In this document: piece by piece, positions 20,014 through 61,270 of the stretch
How the letters are laid out: every line of letters begins with the position of its first letter
Position numbering within the stretch: the first letter of the stretch is position 1
Origin: Streptomyces graminofaciens
Lineage (GTDB): Bacteria; Actinomycetota; Actinomycetes; Streptomycetales; Streptomycetaceae
Assembly (NCBI RefSeq): GCF_030294945.1
Contig: NZ_AP018448.1
Coordinates: 1,798,001 to 1,862,000 of the forward strand
DNA: 64,000 nucleotides
Direction of reading: 5' to 3'
The notes under the pieces: generated by a model
Seen by the model: the letters and a program-made list of their open reading frames with translations, nothing else
Databases searched by the model: none
Told to the model about the DNA's origin: nothing
Position numbers and translations under genes: made by a program

Positions 20014-20044
20014 GAGCCTCTCCTCGCTGTGGGTCACGCGTCGC

Positions 20045-22422
<2,378 letters not shown>

Positions 22423-22426
<4 letters not shown>

Positions 22427-23178: not shown

Positions 23179-23181
23179 GGT

Positions 23182-23580: not shown

Positions 23581-23725
23581 GGGTCCTTGTCCTTCCGCTG
23601 CCTGCCTCCCACCGGGGTTCATTAGAGGCGTGCGCACCCCGTTCGCACGGCCCGGCACGCCGTCACCGGTCGGCAGGTACGCCGTTCGCCGCAACCGCGC
23701 GGCACCACGGGGTGGCGCCCCCGGT

Positions 23726-23830
23726 TCACATCCGTCGGATCCGCAGGTAGCGCCTGAGGTCGGGAAGCACCTCGGCGACGACGACGGCCATGGCGGCGAC
23801 GGCCGCTCCTCCGATGACGATTTTCTTCAT
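23726..23830 (-). CDS. 34-residue membrane peptide of the hydrogenase locus
   Basis: A 34-codon gene that begins MKKIVIGGAAVAAMAVVV and ends with a strongly basic tail (RRYLRIRRM). A single hydrophobic helix followed by Arg residues predicts a one-pass membrane peptide with its tail inside. A strong GAGGAG site stands before ATG 23830, and it lies 11 bp after the maturation protease gene on the same strand. I believe such peptides are annotated as a DUF6893 family in Streptomyces (from memory). Role unknown. Confidence 0.7.
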   Translation of the reverse strand: MKKIVIGGAAVAAMAVVVAEVLPDLRRYLRIRRM

Positions 23831-23841
23831 CCCGTCTCTCC

Positions 23842-29491: not shown

Positions 29492-29577
29492 CGTCTGTGC
29501 CGTGCCCTTCGTTGCGGTCGGATCGTGTGGGGGTGTTGCACGAAGCGTGCGGGGAGCGGGTCACTGTCGGCAGGGGT

Positions 29578-35800: not shown

Positions 35801-37045
35801 TCATGCGTCGGCGCCACCCTCACCCGGCCGCCGGTAGGGCCGCACGGCACGGCGCGCGATGGCGAAACGGTGCGTCTCCGACGGCCCGTCGTAGATCCGG
35901 AACGGTCGCACTTCCCTGAGCAGGCGGGCCAGCGGGGCGTCGGCGGCCGAGATGCCGAGTGCTCCGCAGATCTGCACCGCCCGGTCGACCACCCGGTTCA
36001 CGGCCTCCGCCACGAAGGTCTTGGACACGGAGGTGAGCTGCGCGGCGGCGGAGCCGGTGTCCAACTCCCAGGCGGTACGCAGGATAAGGGCGCGGCTCGC
36101 CTCGATGTCGATCTCGGAGTCGGCCAGCATCTGCTGCACCATGCCGAGATCCCCCAGGACGGAGCCGAACGCCATGCGGCTGCCCGCCCGTTCCAGTGCG
36201 ACGTCCTGGGCGCGCCGCGCGGCTCCCAGCCAGCGCATGCAGTGCGTCATACGGGCGGGGCCGAGCCGGACCTGGGCGCCCGCGAAGCCGTGGCCGACCT
36301 CGCCGAGCACCTGGTCGTCCCCCACCACGCACGCGTCGAAGACGATCTCGCTGTGCCCGGCGAAGAGCCCTTCGTCCAGGGTCTCGATGTCCCGGACGAT
36401 GCTCATGCCGGCAGTACCGGCGTCGACCAGGAACATGGTGGCGCCGCCCGGGTCCCCGGGGCTGCCGGAGGTGCGGGCCATGACGATGGCGAAGCCGGCG
36501 CCGTTGGCCCCGCTGATGAACCACTTGCGCCCGTCGATGCGCCACCCGCCGGGAACCCGTATCGCGGTGGTCCGCAGGGAGCGGGGATCGGCACCGGCTC
36601 CCGGTGCCGGTTCGGTCATGGCGAAGCAGGACCGCACCTCGCCGGCGGCGAGCGGGCGCAGATAGCGTTCCTTCTGGTCCTCGGTGGCCACCATCTCCAG
36701 CAGGTGCATGTTGCCCTCGTCCGGGGCCGCGCAGTTCAGTGCCAGGGGTCCGAGCAGCGAGTAGCCCGCGGCTTCGAACACCACCGCCTGCCCGCGCAGG
36801 TCGAGTCCGTGCCCGCCCCACCTCGTCGGCACGTGCGGAGCGAACACGCCCGCATCATGGGCGCCTTTCTGCAGGGTTTCCCGCAGGGTCTCGGGAGCGT
36901 CGTGCACGGACCCGCCGCAGGCGCGCTCGGCCGGGATCACCACTTCGCGCACGAACGCGGAAGTGGCCTCCGCGAGTTGGGCAACAGTCGGATCGACATC
37001 GAACTGGATGGGCACGGGACCTCCCGCCGACGGGCGCACGGGCAT
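35801..37045 (-). CDS. Acyl-CoA dehydrogenase
   Basis: A 414-residue flavoprotein of the acyl-CoA dehydrogenase superfamily. FAMTEPAPGAGADPRSL and WFISGANGAGFAIVMART are the FAD-contact regions, and RIYDGPSETHRFAIARR ends the domain. The usual catalytic Glu region before the C terminus reads ALGISAADAPLARLLREVRPFRIYDGPSE, like the ACAD10/11 and FadE-type branch. It oxidises an acyl-CoA to the enoyl-CoA. It diverges from an enoyl-CoA hydratase gene across a promoter with a shared operator-like motif. The exact start is uncertain; a GTG 11 codons in also fits. Confidence 0.88.
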   Translation of the reverse strand: MPVRPSAGGPVPIQFDVDPTVAQLAEATSAFVREVVIPAERACGGSVHDAPETLRETLQKGAHDAGVFAPHVPTRWGGHGLDLRGQAVVFEAAGYSLLGPLALNCAAPDEGNMHLLEMVATEDQKERYLRPLAAGEVRSCFAMTEPAPGAGADPRSLRTTAIRVPGGWRIDGRKWFISGANGAGFAIVMARTSGSPGDPGGATMFLVDAGTAGMSIVRDIETLDEGLFAGHSEIVFDACVVGDDQVLGEVGHGFAGAQVRLGPARMTHCMRWLGAARRAQDVALERAGSRMAFGSVLGDLGMVQQMLADSEIDIEASRALILRTAWELDTGSAAAQLTSVSKTFVAEAVNRVVDRAVQICGALGISAADAPLARLLREVRPFRIYDGPSETHRFAIARRAVRPYRRPGEGGADA

Positions 37046-37087: not shown

Positions 37088-37136
37088 TCTTGCCGAGAGA
37101 GACCCGGTGACGGGAAGACGACAGGAGAGACGTCCC

Positions 37137-37973
37137 ATGAACCATCCTGTGAACATCCAGCCGGTCCGGGTCGTCCGCCACCTCGACGGAGTCGTCGAGC
37201 TGAGGCTGGACGATCCCGGGCGGGGCAACGCCCTGGACCTGGCAACGGCCGAGGCACTGCGGGACGCGACCGCCGAGATGGCCGCCGACCCGGGCGGCGC
37301 GGTCCTCCTGCGGGCGGCGGGCGGCACCTTCTGCGTGGGCGGTGACCTGCGCGCCTTCACCGGTCGCGGCGAGGGGACGGGCACCTATGTGCATGCCGTG
37401 GCGACCGCCGCGCACGCCGCGATACTGGCGCTGCACGAACTGCCGGTGCCGGTGGTGACCGCCGTGCGTGGCGCGGCCGCGGGCGGCGGGGTCGGCCTCG
37501 CCCTCGTGGGTGACATCGTCCTGGCGGCCCGGTCCGCACGCTTCCGGCTGGCGTACACGGATGTCGGGCTCACGCCGGACTGCGGGGCCTCCTGGTTCCT
37601 GCCCCGCCTGGTCGGCCCCCGGCTGGCGGCGGACCTGATCCTGACCAACCGGGTCCTGACCGGGGAAGACGCCGAACGGTGGGGCCTGGTCACCCGGTCC
37701 GTGGACGACGAGGAGCTGGACCTGGAGGCGCACCGGACCGCCGCCGGACTGGCCGCCGGCTCCGGTGACGCGCTGCGCGCCGCGAAGGGCCTGCTGCGCG
37801 GCCGTGCCGGGCACGGACTGGGCCGCCACCTCGCCGAGGAGGCACGGCAGATCGCCGCCCTGGCGGATGGGCGGGAGGCACAGGACCGCATGGCGTCGTT
37901 CCTCGCCGCCCGGGACCGCGCCCGGGCGGGCGACAGCCGGACCCGACCCAGGGAACCGGAAAGTGTTTCTTGA
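37137..37973 (+). CDS. Enoyl-CoA hydratase/isomerase
   Basis: A 278-residue crotonase-fold protein. GGTFCVGGDLRAF forms the first part of the oxyanion hole and VRGAAAGGGVGLALVGDIVLAA the second. The second catalytic acid region reads YTDVGLTPDCGASWFLPRLVG, with Asp where many hydratases have Glu, closer to isomerase-type members. I chose ATG 37137 with its AGGAGA site over an upstream in-frame start at 37107. It diverges from an acyl-CoA dehydrogenase and heads the run through the thiolase-like gene. Confidence 0.88.
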   Translation: MNHPVNIQPVRVVRHLDGVVELRLDDPGRGNALDLATAEALRDATAEMAADPGGAVLLRAAGGTFCVGGDLRAFTGRGEGTGTYVHAVATAAHAAILALHELPVPVVTAVRGAAAGGGVGLALVGDIVLAARSARFRLAYTDVGLTPDCGASWFLPRLVGPRLAADLILTNRVLTGEDAERWGLVTRSVDDEELDLEAHRTAAGLAAGSGDALRAAKGLLRGRAGHGLGRHLAEEARQIAALADGREAQDRMASFLAARDRARAGDSRTRPREPESVS

Positions 37974-38061: not shown

Positions 38062-38700
38062 GTGGCGATGCAACCTCCTGCCGTGGACCTTTCGGACGCT
38101 CTCGACGAGACGCTCACCGAAACCGTCGTCGACCTCGTTCTGCGTGGCATGTGGCGCGGCAGGCCCGAGGCCGAGCACCGTCCCCTGGTCGACGCCGGGC
38201 TGGCGATGGTGAAGGGCCCGATGGTGCTGCCGACCGAGCGTGCCAAGGCCGCCGCCTCGCGAATCCTGCGGATCTCCGCGGGATCGGCTCAGGAGGAGCG
38301 GATCACCGCGGCGTACGAGGCCTTCCTGCCGGTCAACAGGAGGATCCGCGAGGTGTGCACGGCATGGCAGTGCCGCCCCGACGGCACCGCCAACGACCAC
38401 TCGGACAGCGTCTACGACGCCGGGGTGCGCGAGTCGCTGGAAGACGTGCACGAAGCCATCCAGCCCGTGCTGCGCAGGCTGGAGCGGGTGCTCGAAGGCA
38501 GCGGACGGTACCTCACGGCCCTGGAGGAAGCCCTCGACCGCTTCGACGACGGCGAGTCCCAGTGGCTGGCCTCGCCGCTGTGCGACTCGTACCACACCGT
38601 GTGGATGCGACTGCACCAGGAACTGCTGCTCGTGCTGGGGATCAGCCGGGCCGAGGACGAGGCCCGTGAAGAGGAACTGGTCACGAGGAGTCGGGGTTGA
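38062..38700 (+). CDS. Helical protein paired with the PPDK-like gene, unknown
   Basis: A 212-residue, mostly helical soluble protein without recognised motifs. The acidic helix RESLEDVHEAIQPVLRRLER and the C-terminal HQELLLVLGISRAEDEARE are typical segments. Start GTG 38062 or ATG 38068 after GGGGAAAAGG. It overlaps the start of the PPDK-like gene (TTGA at 38697-38700), so the two are probably made together and may form a complex. Function not known. Confidence 0.65.
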   Translation: MAMQPPAVDLSDALDETLTETVVDLVLRGMWRGRPEAEHRPLVDAGLAMVKGPMVLPTERAKAAASRILRISAGSAQEERITAAYEAFLPVNRRIREVCTAWQCRPDGTANDHSDSVYDAGVRESLEDVHEAIQPVLRRLERVLEGSGRYLTALEEALDRFDDGESQWLASPLCDSYHTVWMRLHQELLLVLGISRAEDEAREEELVTRSRG

Positions 38701-41291
38701 GCGTCACCGACCGCGAGGCGGGCCCCCTCGGACGATCCGAGGCTCCGCCGGCGCCGCCCGAGGCCCCGGGCCGGGTCCTGGTGCCCTACGGGCAGGGACG
38801 GATCCGGGGGCTCGACGCCGACGAGCTGGGCGCCCACGGCACGGCGATGGACCGGCTGGTGGCCCTCGGGCTGCCGGTCGTGCCAGGGCTCACCGTGCCC
38901 GTCGATGCCTCCGCGTCGCTGTGTGAACCCGGTACCGCCCGAGCCGCCGTCGACCTGATCGAACAGCTCTCGGGGCGCCGGATCGGCGACGCGGGCCGGC
39001 CGCTGCTGCTGCGCCTGTCGGCAAGCGCGCCGAGCGAGATCGCCGGGTTGCCCCCCGACCTGGCCTGTCTCGGCGTCACACCCGCCACCGCCGACGATCT
39101 GTGCGCCGTCATCGGACGCGAGGAGGCACTGTGCGAGGTGTGGGCTGCCACCGTGCGGATGATCGCCGAGTACGCCCTCGACGTGCCCGGCGCGGTGCTC
39201 GACGACGCCCTCCTCGACACTCCCGAGCCGCGGGCACGGGTCGACGCGCTGCTGTCCCTGGTCGCGCGGCACGGCTCCCAGCCCTTCCCCGGCGACCCGG
39301 CACAGCAGCTCGCGCTGGCCGCCCGCGCCCTCCTCGGACGGTGGGACTCACCACGCGCGAGGAGATCCCGCAAGGCCCAGCGGCTCCCCGCCGATCTCGG
39401 TATCGCCCTGCACGTGCAGGCGCTGCGCATCGGCCCGGCGGACCACTCGGGCTACGGTACGGCGGTCAGCCGCCATCCCGAGACGGGCCGTCTCTCCCCC
39501 CAGGGCTCGTTCTTCCGGGGGGTGCGCCGCAGCGCCCCACCCCCGCACACCAGTGAACCGCTGGACCGGCTCGCGGGTGGTACGGCTCTGCTGGAGCATT
39601 CCCTGCTCACCCTCGAACGTCATCTGCACGCGCCCGTCTCGGTCGACTTCGAGGTGCGCGACGACGAGATCTCCCTGCTCGCCGCGTCCACACAGCAACG
39701 GCCGCCGCTGCGGGCCTCGGTGTGCCTCGCCGCCGACCTGGCACGGGACGGGGCGCTCGGCCCCGAGGAGGCCGTACTGCGGATCAGCCCCGCGCAGGTG
39801 CAGGAACTGCTGCACCCCCAACTCCGGCTCACCGGCGGCGAGGAGCTCCTGGTGAAGGGGCTGCCGGCCTCCCCGGGCGCGGCGACCGGCGTGATCGTCC
39901 TGTCCAGCGAACGGGCCCTCGAACTGAGCGCGGACGGCACCCATGTCGTGCTCGTGTCCCATGAGACGACCCCGGCGGACGTCCCCGGGATGCTGGCCTC
40001 CGCCGCCGTACTGACCGGCAGCGGCGGTATCGCCTCGCACGCCGCGGTGGTGGCGCGGGGCGCCGGCAAGCCCGCGGTGTGCGGGGCGGAGGGGCTGCGC
40101 GTGGACCGGACCGCCGGGACAGCGCGGATCGGGGGCCGGGTGCTGCGCGAGGGCGACCCCGTCTCGCTGGACGGCCGTACCGGCGCCGTCTACGCGGGGA
40201 CGCTGAGCGTCAGTGTCGCCGGACCGCCGCCCGAACTGTCCACCCTGCTCGCATGGGCGGACGGCATGCGTCGGCTGGGCGTGCGGGTCAACGCCGACAC
40301 CGCCACCGAGGTCGGCACCGCCGTCGCCCTGGGGGCGGAGGGTGTCGGGCTGTGCCGTACGGAGCACCAGTTCCTCGGCGAGCGGCTGCCCCTGATCCGC
40401 CGGGTGATCCTGGCCGCCGACCCGGCCGCCCGCGACGAGGCGCTGGTGGCGCTGGAACACGCTCAGCACGAGGACTTCAAGGCTCTGCTGGCCGCGGTCG
40501 GGAACCGCCCGGTGACCGTGCGCCTGCTGGACGCCCCGCTGCACGAGTTCCTGCCCGCTCCCGGCCACGCCCCGGACGCGGCCGAGGAGCAGCGGGCCGC
40601 CGCGCTGCGTGAGGCGAATCCGATGCTCGGGCTGCGCGGAGTGCGGCTGGCGCTGCTGCACGAGCGGCTCTACCCGGCGCAGGCCGAGGCGCTCTTCGCC
40701 GCCTGGGCGGACGTCGCCGCCACCGGAGTCCGGCCCGAGCTGGAGGTGATGATCCCGCTCGTCAGCCTGCCGGAGGAACTGGCCGCCGCGGCCTCGTACG
40801 TGCGCGGAGCCGCCGAGGCGGTCGCCGCCCGCACCGGGGTGGAGGTCCCGTACCGGCTCGGCACGATGATCGAGACCCCGCGGGCCGCGCTGCTGGCCGG
40901 CGAACTCGCCGAACACGCCGAGTTCTTCTCCTTCGGCACCAACGACCTCACCCAGCTGACCTACGGATTCTCCCGGGACGACGTCGAGCGCCAGGTGCTC
41001 GCCAACTATCAGGAGCGCGGCTTCCTGACCGCCAGCCCCTTCGCGCGGCTCGACCCGCACGGGGTGGGCGCCCTGATCGCTCTGGCAGCCGAGCGGGCAC
41101 GGAAGGTACGGCCCGGTATCAAGCTGGGCGTGTGCGGGGAGCACGGCGGGGATCCTGAGTCGATCGCGTTCTGCGACGACCTCGGCCTCGACTACGTCTC
41201 CTGTTCCGCGCACCGCGTGCCGGTGGCCCGGATGGCGGCCGCGCACAGTGCCCTGCGCGAGCGGCGTGACGAGAGCGGGAGCGCACGATGA
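38697..41291 (+). CDS. Pyruvate phosphate dikinase-like protein with degraded ATP domain
   Basis: An 864-residue PEP-utilising protein. The central swivelling domain holds the phosphoryl-carrier His448 in GGIASHAAVVARGAGKPAVCG. The C-terminal PEP/pyruvate barrel keeps the family's key residues: GLCRTEHQF, RLLDAPLHEFLP, GTMIETPRAAL, SFGTNDLTQ and Cys836 in YVSCSAHRVP. The N-terminal ATP-grasp domain is poor: no GGKG lysine motif, the Arg of VRSG is lost (LRLSASAPS), and the LQTR strand reads LAASTQQ. It may therefore move phosphate from PEP to His without ATP. TTG start, coupled on both sides. Confidence 0.82.
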   Translation: MSVTDREAGPLGRSEAPPAPPEAPGRVLVPYGQGRIRGLDADELGAHGTAMDRLVALGLPVVPGLTVPVDASASLCEPGTARAAVDLIEQLSGRRIGDAGRPLLLRLSASAPSEIAGLPPDLACLGVTPATADDLCAVIGREEALCEVWAATVRMIAEYALDVPGAVLDDALLDTPEPRARVDALLSLVARHGSQPFPGDPAQQLALAARALLGRWDSPRARRSRKAQRLPADLGIALHVQALRIGPADHSGYGTAVSRHPETGRLSPQGSFFRGVRRSAPPPHTSEPLDRLAGGTALLEHSLLTLERHLHAPVSVDFEVRDDEISLLAASTQQRPPLRASVCLAADLARDGALGPEEAVLRISPAQVQELLHPQLRLTGGEELLVKGLPASPGAATGVIVLSSERALELSADGTHVVLVSHETTPADVPGMLASAAVLTGSGGIASHAAVVARGAGKPAVCGAEGLRVDRTAGTARIGGRVLREGDPVSLDGRTGAVYAGTLSVSVAGPPPELSTLLAWADGMRRLGVRVNADTATEVGTAVALGAEGVGLCRTEHQFLGERLPLIRRVILAADPAARDEALVALEHAQHEDFKALLAAVGNRPVTVRLLDAPLHEFLPAPGHAPDAAEEQRAAALREANPMLGLRGVRLALLHERLYPAQAEALFAAWADVAATGVRPELEVMIPLVSLPEELAAAASYVRGAAEAVAARTGVEVPYRLGTMIETPRAALLAGELAEHAEFFSFGTNDLTQLTYGFSRDDVERQVLANYQERGFLTASPFARLDPHGVGALIALAAERARKVRPGIKLGVCGEHGGDPESIAFCDDLGLDYVSCSAHRVPVARMAAAHSALRERRDESGSAR

Positions 41292-42406
41292 CGAGCACCG
41301 TGACCGACGGCACGGCCCTGTCGGACGCCGAACTGGACGACCTGCGAGAGACCGTACGGTCGGTGTGCGCGGACGCCGGAGGCACGGCCGCGGTGCGGCG
41401 GCTGCCCGAGCGCTCCCCCGGCATCGACGCCGAGTTGTGGCACACCCTCGGCCGGCAGGTCGGCCTCGCGGCCCTCGGGCTGCCCGAGTCGGCCGGAGGC
41501 ATCGGCGGCCTCGCCGAGATCGCCGTGGTCTGCGAGGAACTGGGCAGGACGCTGACACCGGTACCGCTGCTGTCCTCCACCGTGCTGGCCGGGCAGGTGC
41601 TGGCCGGCTGCGGTGCGACCGACAAAGCGCTGGCCGAGCTGGCCGAAGGTACGGTGCACGCCCTGGCGGTGGCGGCTCCCGACGGAGCGTGGCGGTCCGA
41701 CGCCGTGCCGGTGGCCGTCTCCTGGCAGGGCGGTGTCCCGGTCCTCGACGGCACCGTGCCGTTCGTACTCGACGGCGCCGACGCCGAAGCGCTGGTCGTG
41801 GCCGCCACCGGGGCCGACGGCGTGGACCTCTTCGTCGCCGACCCGGGCGGGCCGGGGGTCACGGTTCGCCGGGTGCCCACCCTGGACCTCAGCCGGGGCC
41901 AGGCGGTGGTCACCTTCTCCGGCGCCCGGGCCCGGGCGCTGACCGCCGGGGGCGAGGGGGCGAATGTCGTCTCCCGGGCTCTGGACGTGGCCCTGGTCGC
42001 TCTGGCCGCCGAGCAACTCGGCGGTGCGCAGGCCGCGTTGGACATGACGGTGGCCCATGTGCGGGACCGTACCCAGTTCGGCAGGGCGATCGGCGGCTTC
42101 CAGGCGGTCAAGCACGCCTGTGCCGACATGCTGCTCCAGGTCGAGGGCGCCCGGTCGGCGGTGGTGCGCGCGGTCCGTGCGGCCGACTCTCCCGAGGCGC
42201 TGGCCGAAGCGGCGGCGGTGGCACAGGCATGGTGCTGCGAGGCCTTCGTGTCCGTCGCCGCCGAGTGCGTGCAGCTGCACGGCGGCATGGGCTTCACCTG
42301 GGAGCACGACGCCCACCTGTACTTCCGGCGGGCCCAGTCCGACGCCGTACTGCTGGGCGGCGCCGCACACCACCGGGAACGGCTGGCCGGGCTGCTGGGC
42401 TGGTGA
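41288..42406 (+). CDS. Acyl-CoA dehydrogenase (short FadE-like subunit)
   Basis: A 372-residue acyl-CoA dehydrogenase-fold protein. The C-terminal part has RTQFGRAIGGFQAVKHACADM and QLHGGMGFTWEHDAHLYFRRA, typical of the partner subunits in actinobacterial heteromeric dehydrogenases for side-chain or branched substrates. The middle FAD-binding strands are less conserved. It overlaps the PPDK-like gene by 4 bp (ATGA) and precedes the DUF35 gene by 19 bp. Its partner may be the dehydrogenase ending at 35801. Confidence 0.85.
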   Translation: MTSTVTDGTALSDAELDDLRETVRSVCADAGGTAAVRRLPERSPGIDAELWHTLGRQVGLAALGLPESAGGIGGLAEIAVVCEELGRTLTPVPLLSSTVLAGQVLAGCGATDKALAELAEGTVHALAVAAPDGAWRSDAVPVAVSWQGGVPVLDGTVPFVLDGADAEALVVAATGADGVDLFVADPGGPGVTVRRVPTLDLSRGQAVVTFSGARARALTAGGEGANVVSRALDVALVALAAEQLGGAQAALDMTVAHVRDRTQFGRAIGGFQAVKHACADMLLQVEGARSAVVRAVRAADSPEALAEAAAVAQAWCCEAFVSVAAECVQLHGGMGFTWEHDAHLYFRRAQSDAVLLGGAAHHRERLAGLLGW

Positions 42407-42425
42407 CATGGAGGACGGAACCGGT

Positions 42426-42845
42426 ATGACCACCAGACTCATTGATGACTCGCTGTTCGACGGTGGGATCCCACCGCGTCTCTCGGGCGCGCGCTGCTCC
42501 GGGTGCGGCACCGTCGTCTTCCCCCGTCAGCACTCGTGCCCCAGGTGTTCGGACGGGCCCATGTCCGGTCACGTGCTGCCGGTGAGCGGGCGCGTGTGGT
42601 CGTGGACGCTCCAGGCGTTCCCGCCCAAGCCGCCGTACCGGCCGCCGGCCGACGGCTACCGGCCGTACCACGTGGGTTATGTGGACCTCGGTGAGGTGCT
42701 GGTCGAGGCGCAGCTGGCGGTTCCCCGCGCGGAGATGAGGATCGGGCTGCCGGTCCGGCTCACCATGGTGCCCGCGTACCACGACGAGGACGGAACCGAG
42801 GTACTGACCTTCGCGTTCCGCCCGGACCGGGAAGGGGAGCGATGA
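42426..42845 (+). CDS. DUF35 OB-fold acyl-CoA-associated protein with zinc ribbon
   Basis: A 139-residue protein with CSGCGTVVFPRQHSCPRC, a four-Cys rubredoxin-like zinc ribbon, followed by an OB fold (SGRVWSWTLQAFPPKPP). DUF35 proteins pair with thiolase-like enzymes and enoyl-CoA hydratases, as in the steroid side-chain aldolase Ltp2/ChsH2. I prefer ATG 42426 (GAGGACGGA site) to ATG 42408. It overlaps the thiolase-like gene by 4 bp. Confidence 0.88.
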   Translation: MTTRLIDDSLFDGGIPPRLSGARCSGCGTVVFPRQHSCPRCSDGPMSGHVLPVSGRVWSWTLQAFPPKPPYRPPADGYRPYHVGYVDLGEVLVEAQLAVPRAEMRIGLPVRLTMVPAYHDEDGTEVLTFAFRPDREGER

Positions 42846-43996
42846 GCCGGACCGACGACGTCTACGTGGTCGGATGCGGGATGCGTCCCTTCGGCCGCGA
42901 CGAGAACGTCACGGGGATGGACATGGCCGAGCGGGCGGTGCGCGAGGCACTGGCCGACGCCGGGGTCTCCTGGGAGGACATCGGCTACGCGGCCGGCGGC
43001 TCCGACGTGTCCGGCAAGCCCGACACGCTGGTGGGCCGCCTGGGTCTGACCGGTGTGCCGTTCGTCAACGTGCAGAACGGCTGCGCCACCGGTGCCTCCA
43101 CGGTGCTCGCTGTGGCGAGCGCGCTGCGCGCGGGCGAGGCCTCCCTGGGGCTGGCGGTGGGGTTCGACAAACACGAACGGGGCGCGTTCAACGTCTCCGC
43201 GGCCCGCTACGGCCTGGGCGACTGGTACGCCGAGACCGGCCTGATGCTGACCACCCAGTTCTTCGCCCTGAAGACACAGCGGTACCTGCACGAGCACGGA
43301 ATCTCGCAACGGGCGCTGGCGATGGTCGCCGCGCGGGCCTTCCGCAACGGCTCGCACCACCCGCTGGCGTGGCGGCGCGAACCGCTGACCGAGCAGGAGA
43401 TCCTGGACTCCGCCGAAGTCAGTCCTCCGCTCACCCAGTACATGTTCTGCTCACCGGGACAGGGCGCGGCGGCGCTGGTGCTGGCGCGCGGCGACCGCGC
43501 CTTCGACCTGTGCGAACGACCGGTCAGGCTGGCGTCGTTGGCCTTCCGTACCCGGCGGTTCGGTTCGTTCGAGGTGTTCGCACCCTGGCTGCCGCCGGGA
43601 CCGCACCGCAGCCCCAGCGTCGATGCCGCGGAGGCGGCCTTCCGCACGGCCGGTGTGGGGCCCGCGGACGTCCGGGTCGCCCAGTTGCAGGACACCGACA
43701 GCGGCTCGGAGCTGATCCACCTGGCGGAGACCGGGCTGTGCGGGCACGGCGAGCAGGAAGAGCTGCTGGCCGGCGGGGACACCGATCCCTCGGGCCGGAT
43801 ACCGGTCAACACCGACGGCGGCTGTCTGGCCGGCGGGGAGCCCGTCGGCGCTTCGGGGCTGCGGCAGTTCCACGAGGTCGTACGGCAGTTGCAGGGCCGG
43901 GCGCCGGGCGTGCAGGTACCGGGGGCTCCCCGGGTGGGCTTCACCCACGTGTACGGGGCGCCCGGGATCAGCGCCTGCTCGGTCCTCACGGTGTGA
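42842..43996 (+). CDS. Thiolase-like protein (Ltp2/SCP2-type, possible aldolase)
   Basis: A 384-residue thiolase fold. The nucleophile-region Cys is kept (VQNGCATGAST). The catalytic His of the GHP loop is changed (AGGEPVGASG), and the C-terminal Cys motif is replaced by HVYGAPGISACS. This pattern resembles Ltp2-type enzymes that cleave C-C bonds by retro-aldol chemistry together with a DUF35 partner, rather than true thiolases. It is the last gene of the run and is coupled to the DUF35 gene. The aldolase role is inferred. Confidence 0.82.
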   Translation: MSRTDDVYVVGCGMRPFGRDENVTGMDMAERAVREALADAGVSWEDIGYAAGGSDVSGKPDTLVGRLGLTGVPFVNVQNGCATGASTVLAVASALRAGEASLGLAVGFDKHERGAFNVSAARYGLGDWYAETGLMLTTQFFALKTQRYLHEHGISQRALAMVAARAFRNGSHHPLAWRREPLTEQEILDSAEVSPPLTQYMFCSPGQGAAALVLARGDRAFDLCERPVRLASLAFRTRRFGSFEVFAPWLPPGPHRSPSVDAAEAAFRTAGVGPADVRVAQLQDTDSGSELIHLAETGLCGHGEQEELLAGGDTDPSGRIPVNTDGGCLAGGEPVGASGLRQFHEVVRQLQGRAPGVQVPGAPRVGFTHVYGAPGISACSVLTV

Positions 43997-49586: not shown

Positions 49587-49735
49587 CGCACCCACCCCCA
49601 CAGGACGCCGCGCAGCGACTTCGTCACTTTCTATTGACACACCACACTAAGTCCTGTTGTCGTTTCGGACACAGCCCAGCTGTCGCATTCCGAAGCCGGT
49701 CACCGGCTCGCGGCTGGGAGGATTGTGAGGACATC

Positions 49736-51013
49736 GTGGTCCAGACCAGTTCGCCGGAGATTCGGGAGACTGACGCCGGGCGCGAGCCGCCCTCGGCCCC
49801 CGAATACTCCTCGTGGATCAGCCAGGACCGGTCCACCGACGCCGCGTCCGTGACGATGCGGCGGGAGGCCGCCGAACTCGTCGAACGCGTGGTGGCGCAC
49901 TACCGCGACAACACGACGCACGAGGCGGACGGCCAGTGGACGGAACCTGTCGCCAACTACCTCGACGCCGACCGCTGGCGACGGGAGACGGAAGCCGTCC
50001 ACCGGAGCGTTCCGCTGCCGCTCGCCATGTCCTGCGAGCTGCCCGGACCGAACACCTACAAGGCGCTGGACGTGCTGGGTGTACCGGTGCTGATCACCCG
50101 GGACCGCCAGGGCGCCGTGCACGCGATGATCAACGCCTGTCGGCACCGGGGGGCCAAGCTCCTGGAACCCGGCTGCGGAGTGTCGAGGCGGCTCACCTGC
50201 CCGTACCACTCCTGGTCCTACGACCTGGCCGGTGAGCTGCGCGGCGTATACGCCGAGAAGACCTTCGGAGAGGTTCCGCGGGAGGGCCGCGGCCTCGTCA
50301 GGCTTCCGGCCGGGGAGCGGGCGGGGATCGTCTTCGTCTCGCTGGACCCGGCCGCGGAACCCGACCTGGACGCCTGGCTGGGCGACCTCCAGCCACTCCT
50401 GGAGGGCCTCCGGCTGGCCGAGTGCCACCACTACTCCACCGGCGAGCTGACCAGCCCCAACTGGAAGGTCACCCTCGACGGGTATCTGGAGACGTACCAC
50501 TTCGCCTCGCTGCACCCGAAGACGGTGTTCGAGACGAACCTCTCCAACATGATGGCCCACGACACCTGGGGCCCCCACCAGCGCATCGCACCGGCCCTGC
50601 GTCCGATCGCGCAGGCGGTCGAGCTGTCCCCGGACCAGCGCGACCCGGGAGACTGCGTCGGCCCCATCTACTGGCTCTTCCCCGGCCTGGCGATCGCCGG
50701 CGGCTGGCGGCAGAAGATCGCCGTCTCCCTGGTGCTCCCCCGGACGGCCACCGAGTCGGTGACCCAGCAGATCATCCTGCTGCGGGAACCGCCGGTCACC
50801 GAGGAGGAGCGCCAGGCCGCCGACCGGTTCGGCGAGTGGTTCCACGAGGTGGTCCGCGACGAGGACTACGCGACCACCTACGGAGTCCAGCAGGGCCTCG
50901 CCGCCCTCAACGGGACCGACTTCGTCTTCGGACGCAACGAGCCCGGACTCCAGCACTTCCACCGCACCATTCACCAGCACCTGGACGAAGCAGCCCCCAG
51001 AGCCGCCAGGTGA
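49736..51013 (+). CDS. Rieske non-haem iron oxygenase, alpha subunit (first)
   Basis: A 425-residue ring-hydroxylating-type oxygenase. The Rieske site is C135-R-H137 with C155-P-Y-H158, and the mononuclear iron site is in DGYLETYHFASLHP. It would need a ferredoxin and reductase; the ferredoxin gene near 55.4 kb is a candidate donor. The GTG start at 49736 follows GAGG. It heads a plus-strand run with an SDR, a PEP-family protein and a monooxygenase-fold protein. Substrate unknown. Confidence 0.9.
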   Translation: MVQTSSPEIRETDAGREPPSAPEYSSWISQDRSTDAASVTMRREAAELVERVVAHYRDNTTHEADGQWTEPVANYLDADRWRRETEAVHRSVPLPLAMSCELPGPNTYKALDVLGVPVLITRDRQGAVHAMINACRHRGAKLLEPGCGVSRRLTCPYHSWSYDLAGELRGVYAEKTFGEVPREGRGLVRLPAGERAGIVFVSLDPAAEPDLDAWLGDLQPLLEGLRLAECHHYSTGELTSPNWKVTLDGYLETYHFASLHPKTVFETNLSNMMAHDTWGPHQRIAPALRPIAQAVELSPDQRDPGDCVGPIYWLFPGLAIAGGWRQKIAVSLVLPRTATESVTQQIILLREPPVTEEERQAADRFGEWFHEVVRDEDYATTYGVQQGLAALNGTDFVFGRNEPGLQHFHRTIHQHLDEAAPRAAR

Positions 51014-51866: not shown

Positions 51867-53603
51867 ATGAAGAGCTGGATCACGGACTGGCAGCGCAGTG
51901 AGCGGCTGCCGCACTACACGCGGGCCAACGCGGGCGAGACCCTGCCGGAGCCGGCCAGCCCCCTGGGCTGGACCCTGGTCTGGGGGCGCGGTCTGCACGG
52001 CTGGCGCAAGGGCTTCGTCGGCTTCGGCATCTACCACGAGGAGGAGGTGGCCGGCCCTCGACCGCCGTTCGTCGGGATGTTCGGCGGCTACTTCTACCTC
52101 AACCTGTCGCACATGCGGCTGTTCGGCATCCGTATGGGCCAGACGGCGGACCAGATCGACGCCGCCTTCGTCGGCCAGCGCTCGGACACCCCGGTGTACG
52201 TGGCGCACCCCGACGACCAGGACGCCGAACTGACCGCCAAGGCCGGCGGCACGCTCCAGCGGATGCTGGGGCAGGCCAATTTCCCGGAGGCCGACGCCGA
52301 CCGGGAACGGCTGCGCCGCCTGCGCCGCGAGCGACCGGACCCGACCGGACTGTCGGACGCCGCGCTGGTGGCGCACGCACGGTCGTTGCTGGACGAGGTG
52401 GAGACGACCTTCCAACGGCACGTCGAGTCGTCGCTGCCCGCGTCCGTCGGCCCCGCGATCCTCGGGCCGCTGTGCGCGAGCGTGGACCGCCCCGGCGCCA
52501 TGCTGGACCTCATCGGCGGTCTCGGTGACGTCGACTCGGCCTCCCCCTCGGACGGGCTGTGGACACTGTCCCGCCAGGTGGCGGCCTCGGCCGAGCTGAC
52601 CGCTCTGTTCGACCAGGGTCCGGCGGCGGTGGAGCATGCGCTCGACGGCGCGAGCGGGGACGTGAAGGCGTTCCGTGACGCCTTCGAGGAGTTCCTGGCC
52701 GAGTCCGGTGACCGCGGCCCCAACGAGTGGGACATCCACGCACTGTCCTGGGAGGCGGCTCCGGTGCAGGCACTGGCGCTGGTCGACCGGATCCGACACA
52801 GCTCCGACGACGACTCCCCGGCCGCCCGACGGGCTCGCCTGACCGAGCGGCGCGAGCGGACCGCGCAGGAGATCCGGGCCGTGCTGGCCGAGGACGCGCG
52901 GCCGATGTTCGACGCCGGCATGCACGCCTCCCAGGTGTGGATCCCGGCCCGCGAGCGCACCAAGGCCAACTGTGTGACCGTCGTCAACGAGATCCGGATG
53001 GCACTGCGCGAGCTCGGCCGCCGCGGGGTCGAGGCGGGGCGCTTCGCCAAGCCCGAGGACGTGATGATGCTGCTGGACACCGAACTCGACGACTATGTCG
53101 CCGACCCGGAGTCCTTCGGCCCCGTCATCGCGCGACGGCTTCAGGAGTACGCGGGGCTGCATGAGCTGGAACCGCCGTTCTTCGTCGCGGACGACGCGCG
53201 GACCGAGATCGACACCTGGCCGCGGCGCGCCGAGGAGCGCACCGAGGCCGCGGTCGAGGGCGATGTGCTCAGCGGCGTGGGTGGCAGCCACGGCATGTAC
53301 ACCGGCCGGGTGCGGGTGGTCACGGATCCGGCCTCGTGCGAGGCGCTGGAGCCGGGTGAGGTGTTGGTCGCGCCGATCACGGACGCGGCCTGGACCCCAC
53401 TGTTCCTGGTCGCCGGAGCGGCCGTGGTGGACGTCGGCGCAATCAACAGCCACGCCGTCGTGGTCTGCCGGGAGCTGGGCATCCCGGCCGTCATCTCCGT
53501 CGAAGGCGGAACGCGACGGTTGCGGGACGGCATGGTGATCACGGTCGACGGCAACCGGGGCACGGTCACCGTGGACGGCGTCCCGGCGCCGCTCGGCGTC
53601 TGA
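51867..53603 (+). CDS. PEP-utiliser mobile-domain protein, PpsA/phenylphosphate-synthase-like
   Basis: A 578-residue protein that lacks the ATP-grasp domain. The N-terminal third (YTRANAGETLPEPASPLGWT) and helical middle resemble the substrate-binding part of PEP-synthase-like phosphotransferases; the C-terminal swivelling domain (about 490-575) carries the phospho-His529 in NSHAVVVCRELGIPAV. Thauera PpsA, about 70 kDa, has the same layout and phosphorylates phenol with help from a separate ATP-binding subunit. None is adjacent here. ATG 51867 with CAGGAG. Substrate unknown, possibly a hydroxylated aromatic or enol. Confidence 0.75.
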   Translation: MKSWITDWQRSERLPHYTRANAGETLPEPASPLGWTLVWGRGLHGWRKGFVGFGIYHEEEVAGPRPPFVGMFGGYFYLNLSHMRLFGIRMGQTADQIDAAFVGQRSDTPVYVAHPDDQDAELTAKAGGTLQRMLGQANFPEADADRERLRRLRRERPDPTGLSDAALVAHARSLLDEVETTFQRHVESSLPASVGPAILGPLCASVDRPGAMLDLIGGLGDVDSASPSDGLWTLSRQVAASAELTALFDQGPAAVEHALDGASGDVKAFRDAFEEFLAESGDRGPNEWDIHALSWEAAPVQALALVDRIRHSSDDDSPAARRARLTERRERTAQEIRAVLAEDARPMFDAGMHASQVWIPARERTKANCVTVVNEIRMALRELGRRGVEAGRFAKPEDVMMLLDTELDDYVADPESFGPVIARRLQEYAGLHELEPPFFVADDARTEIDTWPRRAEERTEAAVEGDVLSGVGGSHGMYTGRVRVVTDPASCEALEPGEVLVAPITDAAWTPLFLVAGAAVVDVGAINSHAVVVCRELGIPAVISVEGGTRRLRDGMVITVDGNRGTVTVDGVPAPLGV

Positions 53604-57054: not shown

Positions 57055-57455
57055 AGCTGCCACCGTCGGGAGCAACACTCGCGACGGCGGACGGAGCCAC
57101 ATCGCCCGAGGTCATCACGAATACCGTCGCCCGGCCTGGAATTTTTTGCGACACCCCTCTCCCCAAGCTCGCCGGGGCGTGTCACACTCCGACGCACTTG
57201 AGGCTGTAGTGCCTCATAAGTTTCTTGTTCCGGGTCGGCGTCTGCCCGTCCCGGGCCCAGCGCCGCGGGGTCACCCCGGCGGCCCGCGCCGTGCCCCACG
57301 TCGGCGATCGACGCAGCCCGCTTCCCCTCAGCACCCCATGAGTGCCGTCCCGTCCCGGGCGGCACAGGATCCGCCTGCACGGAGCCGACCGCCGCGGACG
57401 CGGGAGCGACGCGGGTCGCGGCAGCGCAGGCGCCACACCACGGGAGTACTCAACG
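57055..57455. other. Divergent intergenic region
   Basis: About 400 bp between the second Rieske gene and the ABC transporter operon. It contains a TGAGGC-N6-GCCTCA palindrome at 57199-57216 that could be an operator of the transporter genes. No coding sequence is convincing; the in-frame extension of the binding-protein gene back to 57342 lacks signal-peptide character. Confidence 0.5.
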
Positions 57456-58598
57456 ATGAGTTCCACACCCGGTCGCGCGGTCCGCCGCGCCCTCACCGCG
57501 ATCGTGCCCGTCACCGCCCTGCTCACCCTGACGGCATGCGGTTCCGACTCCACTCCGGCCGCCGGGACGTCGCAGGCGGCGGCACCCGGCTCGCCCGGTC
57601 TGACGGCGGCCCGCGCGGCGCTGCAGAAGTACTCCGAACGCCCGGCCTCGATCTCCGTCACCCAGCCCGTCGGCAAGAAGATCCCCAAGGGCAAGGAGAT
57701 CGACTTCATTCTGTGCGGCGTCCAGTCCTGCAAGGACCTTGCCGACTTCTTCACCGAGGGCGCCGAGGAACTCGGCTGGAAGGTGAAGCAGATCGCGACC
57801 CAGGGAACCCCGGAGTCCGTCCAGGCCGCCTATGAGCAGGTCCTGCGCGACAAGCCGGACGCCGTCGTCGCCTCCGGTTTCCCGCGTGCCGTCTACGCCA
57901 AGCAACTGGCACGGCTGAAGGCGGCCGACATCCCCGTCATCCAGTCGAACGCCGACGACGTGGTGGGCGACGGCGTCTCCCTGCTGAAGAACGGGCCGAA
58001 GGACGTCGGCGTCCAGGGCGAGATGCTCGCCTCGTGGGTGGTGTCGGACAGCGGCGCCGAGGCGAACACCGTGTACTTCGATCTGCCGGCCTACTCGATC
58101 CTCAAGCCCGTCAAGGACTCCTTCGCGGCCAAGTACAGGGAATGGTGCGCCGGCTGTGCGCTGGACAACGTCGACGTGCCGATCACCGCGGTCGGCAAGG
58201 ACATGCCGGACCGGGTGGTGTCGTACCTGCGCTCGCACCCGAAGGTGACCCACGTCGTCTTCTCCCTGGGCCTGCTCAACGTGGGCGTCCCGGCCGCGCT
58301 GAAGACCGCCGGCGTCACCGGCAAGCACCTCGTGGTCAACGTCGGTGACGCACAGAACTACCAGTACATCCAGAGCGGTCTCAGCGACGGCGCGATGGCG
58401 CTGAACTCCCATGAGACGGCATGGATCCAGGTCGACGCGCTGGCGCGGCACTTCACCGGCCAGTCCATGGACGTGGACCAGCGGGCGGAGCTGCCGAACA
58501 TGCTGGTCACCAAGGGCAACCTGCCCTCCGCCGACGGCGACTTCCCGATCGTCGAGGACTATCAGGCACAGTTCAAGGCGCTGTGGGGGCTGAGTTGA
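57456..58598 (+). CDS. Sugar-type ABC transporter substrate-binding lipoprotein
   Basis: A 380-residue periplasmic-binding-protein-fold lipoprotein. The signal peptide (RRALTAIVPVTALLTLTAC) ends at a lipobox Cys near residue 28, followed by a Ser/Ala/Pro linker. The rest resembles ribose-type binding proteins (VIQSNADDVVGDG, KHLVVNVGDAQNYQYIQSG). Two close Cys pairs (CGVQSC and CAGC) are unusual for the family. ATG 57456 is preceded by GGGAG. It heads the transporter operon; ligand unknown. Confidence 0.88.
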   Translation: MSSTPGRAVRRALTAIVPVTALLTLTACGSDSTPAAGTSQAAAPGSPGLTAARAALQKYSERPASISVTQPVGKKIPKGKEIDFILCGVQSCKDLADFFTEGAEELGWKVKQIATQGTPESVQAAYEQVLRDKPDAVVASGFPRAVYAKQLARLKAADIPVIQSNADDVVGDGVSLLKNGPKDVGVQGEMLASWVVSDSGAEANTVYFDLPAYSILKPVKDSFAAKYREWCAGCALDNVDVPITAVGKDMPDRVVSYLRSHPKVTHVVFSLGLLNVGVPAALKTAGVTGKHLVVNVGDAQNYQYIQSGLSDGAMALNSHETAWIQVDALARHFTGQSMDVDQRAELPNMLVTKGNLPSADGDFPIVEDYQAQFKALWGLS

Positions 58599-60106
58599 CC
58601 CGGCCGGTGCTGCGGGTGGCCGGGCTGTCGAAGAGGTTCGGCGGAACCCAGGCGCTGAAGGAGATCGACCTGGAGGTCGCACAGGGCGAGATCCACGCTC
58701 TGATCGGCCCCAACGGCTCCGGCAAGTCCACCCTCATCAAGATCCTCGCCGGATACCACCACGCGGAGCCGGGAGCGGTCGCCGAACTCGACGGCGAACC
58801 GTTCGACCTCGGCCAGGTCACCGCCTCCCGGCACGACCGGCTCCGCTTCGTCCACCAGGAGCTGGGGCTGGTGGGCGAGTTGAGCGCCGTCGACAACCTC
58901 GCGCTCAGCCGCGGCTTCGCCCGTACGGCCCTCGGCAACATCCGCTGGCCGGAGATGGAGAGACGGACGACCGCACTGGTCGAACGGTTCGGTCTCGGCA
59001 TCGACGTGCGCCGGCCCCTGACGACGGCGACCCCCGTCCAGCGCGCGGTGGTGGCCATCGCCGCCGCGCTGCAGGGCTGGGAGGGCCGCCGCGGTGTCCT
59101 GGTGCTCGACGAGCCCACCGCCGTACTGCCGCCCGGTGAGGTGGCCCGGCTCTTCGACATCGTGCGGGAGGTCCGCGACGCCGGCGCCGGCGTGCTGTAC
59201 GTCTCGCACCGGATGGACGAGATCTTCGCGCTCGCCGACCGGGTCACCGTGATCCGCGGCGGACACCGCATCGCCACGCGCCCGGTCGCCGAACTCACCC
59301 CGCGCTCGCTGGCGGAGCTGATGGCGGGAGAGGAGACGGAGACCGACCACCGCCCGGCTCCTCGTTCCGGCACCGACGGGACCGTACTGGAGGTCCGCGA
59401 CCTGTGGGCCGGGCCCCTGCGGGGAATCGGCTTCGATCTCGCCGGGGGCGAGCGTCTGGGCATCACCGGGCTGGTCGGCTCCGGCCACGAGATCGTGCCG
59501 TACGCGGTGTGCGGCGCCCACTCCGGGCGGGTGAGCGGCAGGCTGCGGCTGCCGGAGCGCTCCGAGCGCTGGACCGACGCGCGCCACGCCGGCGGGCTGG
59601 GCCTCCCCCTGGTCCCCGCCGACCGGCCGGGCGAGGGAGTGATCGGTGACTTCTCGGTCGGCGAGAACCTCACCCTTCCTCTTCTGCACCGGCTCCGCGC
59701 CCGGGGCGGACGGCTGCACCGGCGCCGCGAGTCCTCCCTCGCCGAGGACTGGATCCAGCGGGTCGGGGTCCGCACGGCGGGCCGCGGAGCCCGCATCACC
59801 ACACTGAGCGGCGGCAACCAGCAGAAGGTCGTCATGGCCCGCTGTCTGGCCCAGCGTCCGCCGGTGCTGGCGCTGTGCGAACCCACTGCGGGCGTCGACA
59901 TCGCCACCCGTCTGCAGCTGTACGACCTGATAGAGCGTCAGGCGGACGAGGGCATGGGCGTCATCCTCTCCTCCTCCGACACCCAGGACCTGCTCGCCCT
60001 GTGCACCCGTGTCCTGGTGGTACGGGACGGCCGGATCGTACGGGAGCTCAGCGGTCGCGACATCACCGAGCCCGCGCTCGTGCACGCCATGGAAGGAACC
60101 GAGTGA
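58595..60106 (+). CDS. ABC transporter ATPase, RbsA-type (two NBDs)
   Basis: A 503-residue protein with two nucleotide-binding domains. In the first, GPNGSGKST is Walker A and VLVLDEPTAVLPPGE Walker B, while its signature reads ATPVQRAVVAIAAAL. In the second, Walker A is degenerate (GLVGSGHEIV) but the signature LSGGNQQKV and EPTAGVD are kept, as in RbsA relatives. The TTG start at 58595 overlaps the binding-protein stop (TTGA); a GTG 4 codons later is less well spaced from the GGGGG site. Confidence 0.9.
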   Translation: MTRPVLRVAGLSKRFGGTQALKEIDLEVAQGEIHALIGPNGSGKSTLIKILAGYHHAEPGAVAELDGEPFDLGQVTASRHDRLRFVHQELGLVGELSAVDNLALSRGFARTALGNIRWPEMERRTTALVERFGLGIDVRRPLTTATPVQRAVVAIAAALQGWEGRRGVLVLDEPTAVLPPGEVARLFDIVREVRDAGAGVLYVSHRMDEIFALADRVTVIRGGHRIATRPVAELTPRSLAELMAGEETETDHRPAPRSGTDGTVLEVRDLWAGPLRGIGFDLAGGERLGITGLVGSGHEIVPYAVCGAHSGRVSGRLRLPERSERWTDARHAGGLGLPLVPADRPGEGVIGDFSVGENLTLPLLHRLRARGGRLHRRRESSLAEDWIQRVGVRTAGRGARITTLSGGNQQKVVMARCLAQRPPVLALCEPTAGVDIATRLQLYDLIERQADEGMGVILSSSDTQDLLALCTRVLVVRDGRIVRELSGRDITEPALVHAMEGTE

Positions 60107-60136
60107 CATGCGCCCTGGAAGGAACCGACTGACATG
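60090..60136 (+). repeat. Direct microduplication spanning the ATPase stop and permease start
   Basis: A 21-bp unit at 60090-60110 recurs at 60116-60136 with one mismatch (GAGTGACATG versus GACTGACATG). Each copy has a GGAAGG site and an ATG. The first ATG now opens a 9-codon reading frame that stops at the permease start. Confidence 0.8.
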
Positions 60137-61270
60137 ACATCCACCCCGACCCGGTCGGCGGTGCTCAGGCCGTCCGCGCCGGACCGGCCCGCGGCGCTCG
60201 TCCCGGCCGCACCGGTCCGGCGGGCGGCGGCCGCCCTGTCGTTCCGGAACATCGGCGCCGTGTACGTGTGGCTGGTCATCGCCGTGCTCTTCTCCGTCTG
60301 GGCACCGGAGACGTTTCCGACCGCCACCACGGTCAAGCAGATACTCAACGGCAACGCCGTGGCCGGGCTGGTGGCACTCAGCGTCGTACCGCCGCTGGCC
60401 GCGCGTGTCTTCGACCTCTCGGTCGCCTACACCATGTCGCTGACCAGCGTGCTGACCGCCTACTTCCTGGTCTCCACCGGGCTGGGGCCTTCCGCCGCGA
60501 TCGCCCTGGCGATGACCGCCGCGCTGCTGATCGGGGTCGTCAACGGCATCGTGGTGGTGGTGCTGCGCGTCGACTCGTTCATCGCCACCCTGGCGACCGG
60601 TGCGCTGATCCAGTCCCTGATCACCATGGTCACCAACGACAGCTCCATCACTGGCGTGCAGCTGCTGGCCGAGCCGTTCGCGAACATCGCCCAGCTGGAC
60701 GCGGGCGGTATCACGCTGCCGGTGCTGTACCTGCTGCTCGCCGCGGTGGCCATCTGGTTCCTGCTGGAGCACACCGCCACCGGGCGCCGGTTGTACGCGA
60801 CCGGCTTCAACGCCGACGCGGCACGGCTGCAAGGGGTGCGCACCGACCGGCTGCGCTTCCTGACCCTGGTGACCTCCGCGCTGCTGGCCGGTTTCGCCGG
60901 AATCGTCTTCGCGTCCTCGGTCGGATCGGGATCGCCGACCGCGGGCACGCCGTATCTGCTGTCGGCCTACGCCGCGGCCTTCGTCGGGGCGACCCAGCTG
61001 CGCGCCGGCCGCTTCAACGCCTGGGGCACGGTGCTCGCGGTCCTGCTGCTCGGCACCGGCGTCACGGGGCTCGGGCTCGCCACCAGCGCCCCGTGGGCCG
61101 CGAGCCTGTTCACCGGCTCGGTCCTCATCGTCGCGCTGGTCCTGACGGGTGGCCGGATCACCCTGCCCGCCGTCCTGCGCCGCCGGAGGGGGCACTCGTC
61201 CGATGGCGGGCCCGAGACTCCCACGGAGGGCTCCGCCGTGCCGGCCACCGGTGAGGAGAGCAGAGGATGA
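60134..61270 (+). CDS. ABC transporter permease, RbsC-type
   Basis: A 378-residue membrane protein with about 8-10 hydrophobic segments. GRRLYATGFNADAARLQGVRTDRLR is the cytosolic coupling loop of ribose/xylose-type permeases; the C-terminal 35 residues are hydrophilic. It follows the ATPase gene and overlaps the alcohol dehydrogenase gene by 4 bp (ATGA), so importer and dehydrogenase are one transcript. Confidence 0.9.
   Translation: MTSTPTRSAVLRPSAPDRPAALVPAAPVRRAAAALSFRNIGAVYVWLVIAVLFSVWAPETFPTATTVKQILNGNAVAGLVALSVVPPLAARVFDLSVAYTMSLTSVLTAYFLVSTGLGPSAAIALAMTAALLIGVVNGIVVVVLRVDSFIATLATGALIQSLITMVTNDSSITGVQLLAEPFANIAQLDAGGITLPVLYLLLAAVAIWFLLEHTATGRRLYATGFNADAARLQGVRTDRLRFLTLVTSALLAGFAGIVFASSVGSGSPTAGTPYLLSAYAAAFVGATQLRAGRFNAWGTVLAVLLLGTGVTGLGLATSAPWAASLFTGSVLIVALVLTGGRITLPAVLRRRRGHSSDGGPETPTEGSAVPATGEESRG

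Follow-up and report, generated by a model that had tools for sequence, protein, structure and literature searches.

A stretch of 64,000 nucleotides from Streptomyces graminofaciens (positions 1,798,001 to 1,862,000 of contig NZ_AP018448.1, forward strand; the window below), part of an 11.6-Mb genome on a single contig, encodes an 864-residue relative of pyruvate, phosphate dikinase (PPDK) that has lost its ATP site and kept its phosphoenolpyruvate (PEP) site. On comparative evidence from sequence, this PPDK descendant has probably turned into a PEP-charged, ATP-independent phospho-histidine (phospho-His) donor, with a 212-residue protein that may serve it for docking or relay and a kinase-like protein at 51867..53603 (+ strand) as the likeliest acceptor. 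The PPDK-like gene lies at 38697..41291 (+, TTG start as listed) and was assigned by Pfam, NCBIfam and alignment with PPDK structures. Its open reading frame (ORF) shares 4 nt with that of the 212-residue protein (38062..38700, +) and, at its end, 4 nt with an acyl-CoA dehydrogenase ORF at 41288. A preliminary description drawn from the letters of the window had proposed much of this and is partly supported here: its account of the protein is borne out, and so, for the most part, is the logic that it suggested.

The 864-residue protein aligns end to end with solved PPDKs (552 bits with 1vbg over residues 31-850), shares their three-domain order and their His and PEP domains, and is ~38-42% identical to the two complete PPDKs of its own genome. 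It is composed of an ATP-grasp-derived N-domain (residues 29-376; 38781..39824, +), a swivelling phospho-His domain (residues 377-505, within 38697..41291, +) and a PEP/pyruvate-binding barrel (residues 515-855; 40239..41261, +). It differs from PPDK in the key ATP-site residues, which are intact there and replaced here. A Pfam search at E up to 1 matched the mobile His domain and the PEP-binding domain and gave no match to the ATP-grasp model PF01326, and the score with the NCBIfam PPDK model pyru_phos_dikin (TIGR01828) was 686.7 bits, short of the cut-off of 843.45. Residues were mapped by alignment with the PPDK of C. symbiosum, whose structure chain is without Met1; in this alignment K22 corresponds to H47 (codon at 38835..38837, +), R92 to S108, D321 to S315, E323 to D317, Q335 to A329 and R337 to S331, and the catalytic residues H455 and C831 correspond to H448, the predicted phospho-histidine (codon at 40038..40040, +), and C836.

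These replacements are shared by 42 full-length rows, consisting of the window and 41 of 44 loci (L061, L063 and L077 were excluded as incomplete or broken). The K22 position is His in all 42; R92 has become Ser in 40 and Ala or Val in one each, Q335 Ala in 39 and Ser in three, and R337 Ser in 35, Ala in six and Gly in one. The four residues of the PPDK ATP/AMP/pyrophosphate site, K22, R92, Q335 and R337, are each replaced in 42/42 rows, and His448, Arg554, Arg609, Glu726, Asn749, Asp750 and Cys836 are invariant in 42/42. At the remaining two positions, D321 is Ser in 35 rows, Thr in four, Arg in two and Tyr in one, and E323 is Asp in 40, Gly in one and still Glu in one. Eleven proteins of the VadK type (see below), like both complete PPDKs of S. 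graminofaciens, keep K, R, E, Q and R at positions 22, 92, 323, 335 and 337; D321 is not diagnostic, since it is Tyr in those 11 VadK-type rows. We take D321, E323, R92 and Q335 of PPDK to be ATP or metal contacts. PPDK mutants K22A and R337A are named in PDB titles, and in rifampin phosphotransferase (RPH) the Lys22Ala change, at a position that its authors equate with Lys22 of PPDK, abolished activity according to excerpts of that paper (PMC4844700). The claims of the preliminary description that the PEP half is intact and the ATP half degraded both withstood the PPDK alignment for which it had called. A possible DxE remnant, which it had seen in the motif VDFEV, did not: the motif is off register and no relic of the metal site, as D317 aligns with E323 and Ser stands at D321.

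Loss of a catalytic site would also be expected of a PPDK copy decaying like a pseudogene, but the selection test contradicts this. Pairwise comparison of 25 Streptomyces and Lentzea sequences gave median dN/dS values of 0.20 for the N-domain, 0.19 for the His domain and 0.145 for the PEP domain (0.15-0.20 in all three domains), compared with ~1.0 (1.02) for the 28-residue N-terminal tail, indicating that the altered N-domain is maintained by selection. In addition, the order 212-residue protein, PPDK-like protein, acyl-CoA dehydrogenase is kept in 44/44 loci, the PPDK-like protein being matched partly in a few (L061, L063, L077), and PEP-type proteins, as we call the 864-residue protein and its relatives, occur in several bacterial families. 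Decay is left with a practically negligible probability.

The PEP-type protein is rare and forms a group of its own. A profile of the altered N-domain (E ≤ 1e-50) found it in 12/345 sampled genomes of the class, from 6/126 genera, and when 396 genomes from the phylum were searched with the single sequence, the gene itself came up at 5.8e-244 and, as the next match at 3.9e-38, a protein that is a complete PPDK in the tree. In that tree of 76 proteins, 11 PEP-type rows form one clade with support 100/100, with a long-branch warning at its stem. The PPDK-like copies of Lentzea (loci L038, L040 and L046 carry the operon) are 92-93% identical to the window protein, close to the 94% of the best Streptomyces copy, and the tree places its sole Lentzea row as sister to the window protein; these two observations suggest horizontal transfer, and a recent transfer involving the Lentzea operon appears likely from the sequences.

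The second component, the 212-residue protein, has only two weak Pfam hits (E 0.08 and 0.13), neither above a curated cut-off, and matched no NCBIfam model at E ≤ 0.01. In its predicted model the helical bundle at the C-terminus is confident and the N-terminus unsure, and fold searches returned only generic helical (four-helix) bundles. Residues conserved in its family, here called H212, are N92, W102, Q103, N111-D112-H113, S176, H178 and H185; N92, W102, Q103, S176, H178 and H185 are among those invariant in an alignment of 18 rows. Many members have an N-terminus that, judged by eye, resembles a helix-turn-helix (HTH); it is shortened in the 212-residue protein, in which an HTH was not confirmed.

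H212 proteins occur in 66/345 genomes of the class, and their neighbours were counted up to about 6 kb away, or to the contig end where that came sooner, in 57 fetched stretches (17 for the 26 matches of one search and 40 for 78 listed matches), 56 of which held a scorable H212 gene. The neighbour was a VadK-type protein in 32, a PEP-type protein in six, another small swivel protein in nine and none that was recognised in eight; in the remaining stretch, L176, H212 was accompanied only by a relative of the 51867..53603 protein and by an ATP-grasp ORF that runs off the end of the stretch. Within this range, and with the L176 ORF incomplete, no complete PPDK was seen beside H212 in the 56 stretches. 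In one genome, G735, a PEP-type gene (L172) and a VadK-type gene (L177) are accompanied by separate H212 genes. The small swivel proteins (L078, L093, L160, L162, L163, L166, L171, L173 and L179), most of them with a weak ATP-grasp match, are a third architecture with the same partner family.

VadK is one of the closest known parallels to the pair of 212- and 864-residue proteins. Excerpts of the paper that describes it (PMC13400623, EMBO Reports 2026) state that VadK of M. tuberculosis (Rv1127c) autophosphorylates on His422 with ATP and Mg, that it lacks the PEP domain, and that it co-precipitates with enzymes of the methylcitrate cycle and is proposed to act by interaction; in its methods, the only place where Rv1126c is named, this operonic partner is said to have made the protein more soluble when co-expressed and to have been removed with a 2 M NaCl wash. 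Both VadK and the 864-residue protein are PPDK descendants with one donor site and a phospho-His domain, and H212-family genes lie beside VadK-type genes as one does beside the 864-residue gene. VadK has been linked to the catabolism of propionate and cholesterol; the 864-residue gene sits among acyl-CoA genes. They differ in that VadK keeps the ATP site and is without a PEP domain, and the 864-residue protein, with no intact ATP-grasp site but with its PEP domain retained, is the reverse. Given that H212 lies beside VadK-type genes in 32 of the 56 stretches and that no complete PPDK was seen beside it, the pair looks like a mirrored VadK in which the donor was switched from ATP to PEP. At locus L186, which carries the VadK motif as readable from the authors' mutagenic primer, a 201-residue H212 gene lies directly downstream, and gene order together with this motif suggests that Rv1126c may itself be an H212 protein. 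The same excerpts remark that VadK may have arisen more than once (PMC13400623), which fits our tree, where the VadK label requires at least two changes and the VadK-type branch positions in family f85 fall among complete PPDKs. Three f85 loci (L268, L269 and L168) are VadK-type and stand apart from the other VadKs in the tree, yet adjoin an H212 gene, and would apparently represent an independent origin with the same partner.

The parallel also supplies an alternative, in which the 864-residue protein is a regulatory pseudo-dikinase like VadK: phosphorylated His448, or PEP occupancy, would gauge the PEP:pyruvate ratio and alter binding to the pathway's enzymes through the 212-residue protein, with no small molecule phosphorylated. 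The association of VadK with methylcitrate cycle enzymes, the same partner family beside VadK-type genes and the HTH-like N-termini of many H212 members all speak for such a gauge. It is nevertheless somewhat unlikely, as it leaves unexplained the donor-less kinase half present in all 12 genomes with a PEP-type protein (below), and the VadK authors, in the excerpts seen, found no transcriptional control of methylcitrate genes (PMC13400623).

That kinase half, the candidate acceptor in the reading of a PEP-charged donor, is encoded at 51867..53603 (+; the ORF is listed from 51684 and 51867 is our chosen start). It matches the second half, that is the substrate and swivel parts, of the RPH, PigC and RedH models below their cut-offs, its residues 270-568 align to RPH chains, and neither an ATP-grasp nor a PEP domain was found in it. 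The preliminary description had pointed to this 51.9-kb protein as a possible partner and had called it PpsA-like; the candidacy gained from its relatives in all 12 PEP-type genomes, and the PpsA label did not hold, the protein being the substrate and His half of an RPH/HpeH-type enzyme without a donor domain. It has this substrate-binding and swivel half in common with RPH, CreHI, phenylphosphate synthase and the dikinase HpeHI, whose substrate and swivel subunit HpeH is likewise described as the RPH second half in excerpts of PMC12167813. HpeHI differs in having an ATP-grasp partner of the HpeI type; none was found in this island, where a PEP-type donor is present instead. The protein also matches the C-terminal part of the NCBIfam model PRK05865, 'sugar epimerase family protein' (111 bits, below cut-off), and PRK05865 might be a donor-less swivel protein elsewhere, perhaps a VadK acceptor.

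An audit of donors sets this orphan kinase apart from the other swivel proteins of its genome. PF00391 has ten matches there, one of them a 25-bit fragment. Among the nine strong swivel proteins, six have a donor in the same frame (two PPDKs, two fused kinases, an enzyme-I-like protein and the PEP-type protein) and two adjoin an ATP-grasp gene, leaving 51867..53603 as the only one with no donor domain in frame or adjacent. The nearest PF01326 match lies ~0.21 Mb away; there is none in the window, hence no neighbouring ATP-grasp subunit as in HpeHI, and none in the island stretches fetched from nine other genomes. These PF01326 searches covered genomes outside family f85. Genome G897 has four swivel proteins, an enzyme-I-sized one with a PEP domain, the PEP-type protein and two orphan kinases flanking the latter on either side, and no PF01326 (PPDK_N) match at E ≤ 0.01; in Frankia G816 the sole PF01326 protein is a complete PPDK.

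The distribution of the three proteins is nested. Relatives of the orphan kinase (E ≤ 1e-40) occur in 17/345 genomes; all 12 PEP-type genomes are among these 17, and all 17 are among the 66 with H212 (hypergeometric p 1e-18 and 1e-13, respectively, or 6e-9 and 8e-6 when counted by genus, kinship being ignored in each case). A relative lies within ~20 kb of the pair in nine of ten genomes or loci with longer flanks, the tenth contig being too short. This co-occurrence would be unexplained if the 51.9-kb kinase were unrelated and the 212-residue protein either accepted the phosphoryl group itself, on the conserved His178 or His185, or was a subunit that binds the substrate. We consider that quite unlikely: conserved polar residues in its predicted helical bundle, the 4-nt gene overlap and the presence of H212 beside all three swivel architectures would suit an acceptor, but the fold matches are to generic four-helix proteins only.

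Several observations weigh against a PEP-charged donor that serves the orphan kinase. In six PEP-type rows from outside Streptomyces and Lentzea (L164 compared over the N-domain only), loss of the ATP site is less uniform: K22 is His in three and Arg in three, the latter being the three aligned copies of family f103, and R92 is replaced in five of six, with Q335 and R337 replaced in all six. The exception, L174 of G897, retains R92 and E323 and has Glu at D321, with K22, Q335 and R337 gone; it is perhaps an intermediate of ATP-site loss. In L169 (G888), Ala replaces the catalytic Cys of the PEP domain, which is Cys in the close relatives L170 and L172, and in the predicted structure of the 864-residue protein, built on 26 close rows, the His domain has low confidence. 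Cross-charging is possible because two complete PPDKs and free ATP-grasp proteins are encoded elsewhere in the same genome; in G107 a PF01326 match (131 bits, 734-residue frame) ~0.6 Mb from the island could serve the orphan kinase, and several other genomes have ATP-grasp proteins elsewhere, that of G735 being a VadK-type one. In G816 the closest orphan-kinase relative is on another contig, and a second one is 19 kb away. Five f85 genomes have orphan-kinase relatives without a PEP-type protein; three of them (G690, G709, G738) have VadK-type neighbours of H212, and none was seen in the fetched stretches of the other two, where an ATP-grasp ORF of G751 is cut off. H212 and VadK were not found in seven of eight f85 stretches around orphan kinases, only L176 holding H212, and in most VadK stretches no orphan kinase was seen within 6 kb, although two with VadK-type genes, L190 and L192, carry a more distant relative. 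Absences in the genome searches are soft, since the best few candidates per genome were scored.

Some of these points would suit a residual or altered PPDK, whose N-domain would use new residues to bind some other nucleotide or phosphate donor and which would act as a dikinase of changed specificity. In its favour are the conservation of the N-domain under selection, its prediction with fair confidence over much of its length and match to PPDK structures, and the two residues retained in L174. It is improbable, however, given the replacement of K22, R92, Q335 and R337 in all 42 rows and the two complete PPDKs that the genome already has.

A PEP-charged donor is favoured by the comparative evidence, namely loss of the ATP site in one clade, purifying selection and H212 beside reduced dikinases, and to this extent the suggestion of an ATP-independent donor with a dedicated partner and a logic like that of enzyme I stands. 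In such a mechanism, the conserved C-terminal barrel would move the phosphoryl group of PEP to His448 with release of pyruvate, a step that is probable from the conservation of the site. The swivel domain would be neither charged by ATP nor discharged to AMP and pyrophosphate; with the key nucleotide-site residues gone, it would have no nucleotide route, and the phosphoryl group would leave through a partner protein. The associated 212-residue protein may be a dedicated docking or relay subunit, which we regard as about an even bet, and transfer to the orphan kinase falls a little short of one. The kinase would in turn phosphorylate a small molecule of the island's catabolic pathway.

Transfer from PEP to His without ATP is the chemistry expected to be shared with enzyme I of the phosphotransferase system (PTS), whose His and PEP domains are homologous. 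The two differ in the N-domain, which in the 864-residue protein aligns with the nucleotide-binding domain of PPDK and is not the HPr-binding domain of enzyme I, and the protein scores 116 bits against an enzyme I cut-off of 341.7. There is precedent for PEP-derived transfer to a small molecule, as enzyme I alone phosphorylated rifampicin in vitro, and not detectably in vivo, according to excerpts of PMC13099321, and a figure legend likens the apex subdomain of RPH to PTS EIIA proteins (PMC4844700).

Taken together, the PPDK-like protein, its partner and the donor-less kinase suggest an unrecognised PEP-powered phosphorylation in a catabolic pathway. We offer more tentatively, as possible rather than probable, a three-part small-molecule phosphotransferase outside the PTS, in which a PPDK-derived analogue of enzyme I passes the phosphoryl group over a helical relay to the orphan kinase, activating a terpenoid- or steroid-like substrate, and in which evolution swapped the donor module and kept relay and acceptor. 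The known donors of phospho-His swivel domains are of the ATP-grasp kind (PPDK, PEP synthase, RPH, HpeHI, VadK) or, in the PTS, PEP; here PEP has apparently taken the place of the ATP donor, with the partner family retained. If so, the H212 family is a common denominator of several reduced dikinases, with a role testable in the Streptomyces proteins, and a source of energy can be predicted for donor-less RPH-like kinases. It is also a warning that some genes resembling pyruvate, phosphate dikinase cannot be one. New here are the PEP-type clade, the selection test, the mirror relation to VadK, the partner family and the link to the orphan kinase; in the literature searched, which left most subscription papers outside, a PEP-only PPDK relative with this partner was not described, apart from a one-sentence remark, in excerpts of the VadK paper, on a full-length PPDK without kinase motifs in two mycobacterial species (PMC13400623).

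Gene lists came from a simple GC-position caller that misses some genes; those around the pair mostly look catabolic. An enoyl-CoA hydratase/isomerase family protein lies upstream (37107..37973, +; Pfam, NCBIfam), preceded by a divergent acyl-CoA dehydrogenase (35801..37045, -; Pfam); in the two Frankia loci neither of these genes was found next to the pair. Downstream are the overlapping acyl-CoA dehydrogenase (41288..42406, +; best NCBIfam model IpdE2, below cut-off) and, between it and a TetR gene, a ChsH2-type zinc ribbon/OB-fold protein (42402..42845, +; start approximate) and a thiolase-like protein (42842..43996, +; best NCBIfam models 'lipid-transfer protein', below cut-off). The combination of paired acyl-CoA dehydrogenases and a ChsH2/Ltp2-like pair points to a polycyclic compound, for instance a steroid, whose side chain is cleaved, and the island's substrate is perhaps a polycyclic compound with a short side chain.

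Further along, a Rieske oxygenase alpha subunit (49634..51013, +) has a relative that adjoins the pair divergently in two Frankia loci, and a sugar-type ATP-binding cassette (ABC) importer within 57342..61270 (+; ATPase 58421-60106, permease 60134-61270) is preceded by an ORF without NCBIfam match (57342-58598, +); relatives of these 57342..61270 genes are found close to the pair in other families. In Streptomyces, Frankia, G897 and f103 the pair is accompanied by some or all of a Rieske oxygenase (a weak match only in G897), a 2-oxoacid dehydrogenase E1, oxidoreductases, a protein resembling short-chain dehydrogenases (SDR-like) and ABC importer genes. Most of 35801-63923 resembles one catabolic island with relatives in Streptomyces, Frankia, an f3 genome and f103 (2-3 Mb genomes); in Lentzea only its left part was seen. 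Apart from this island, the window holds at 19708-30666 what we take to be a NiFe hydrogenase operon with accessory genes, the large subunit at 27707-29491 and the small subunit at 29578-30666.

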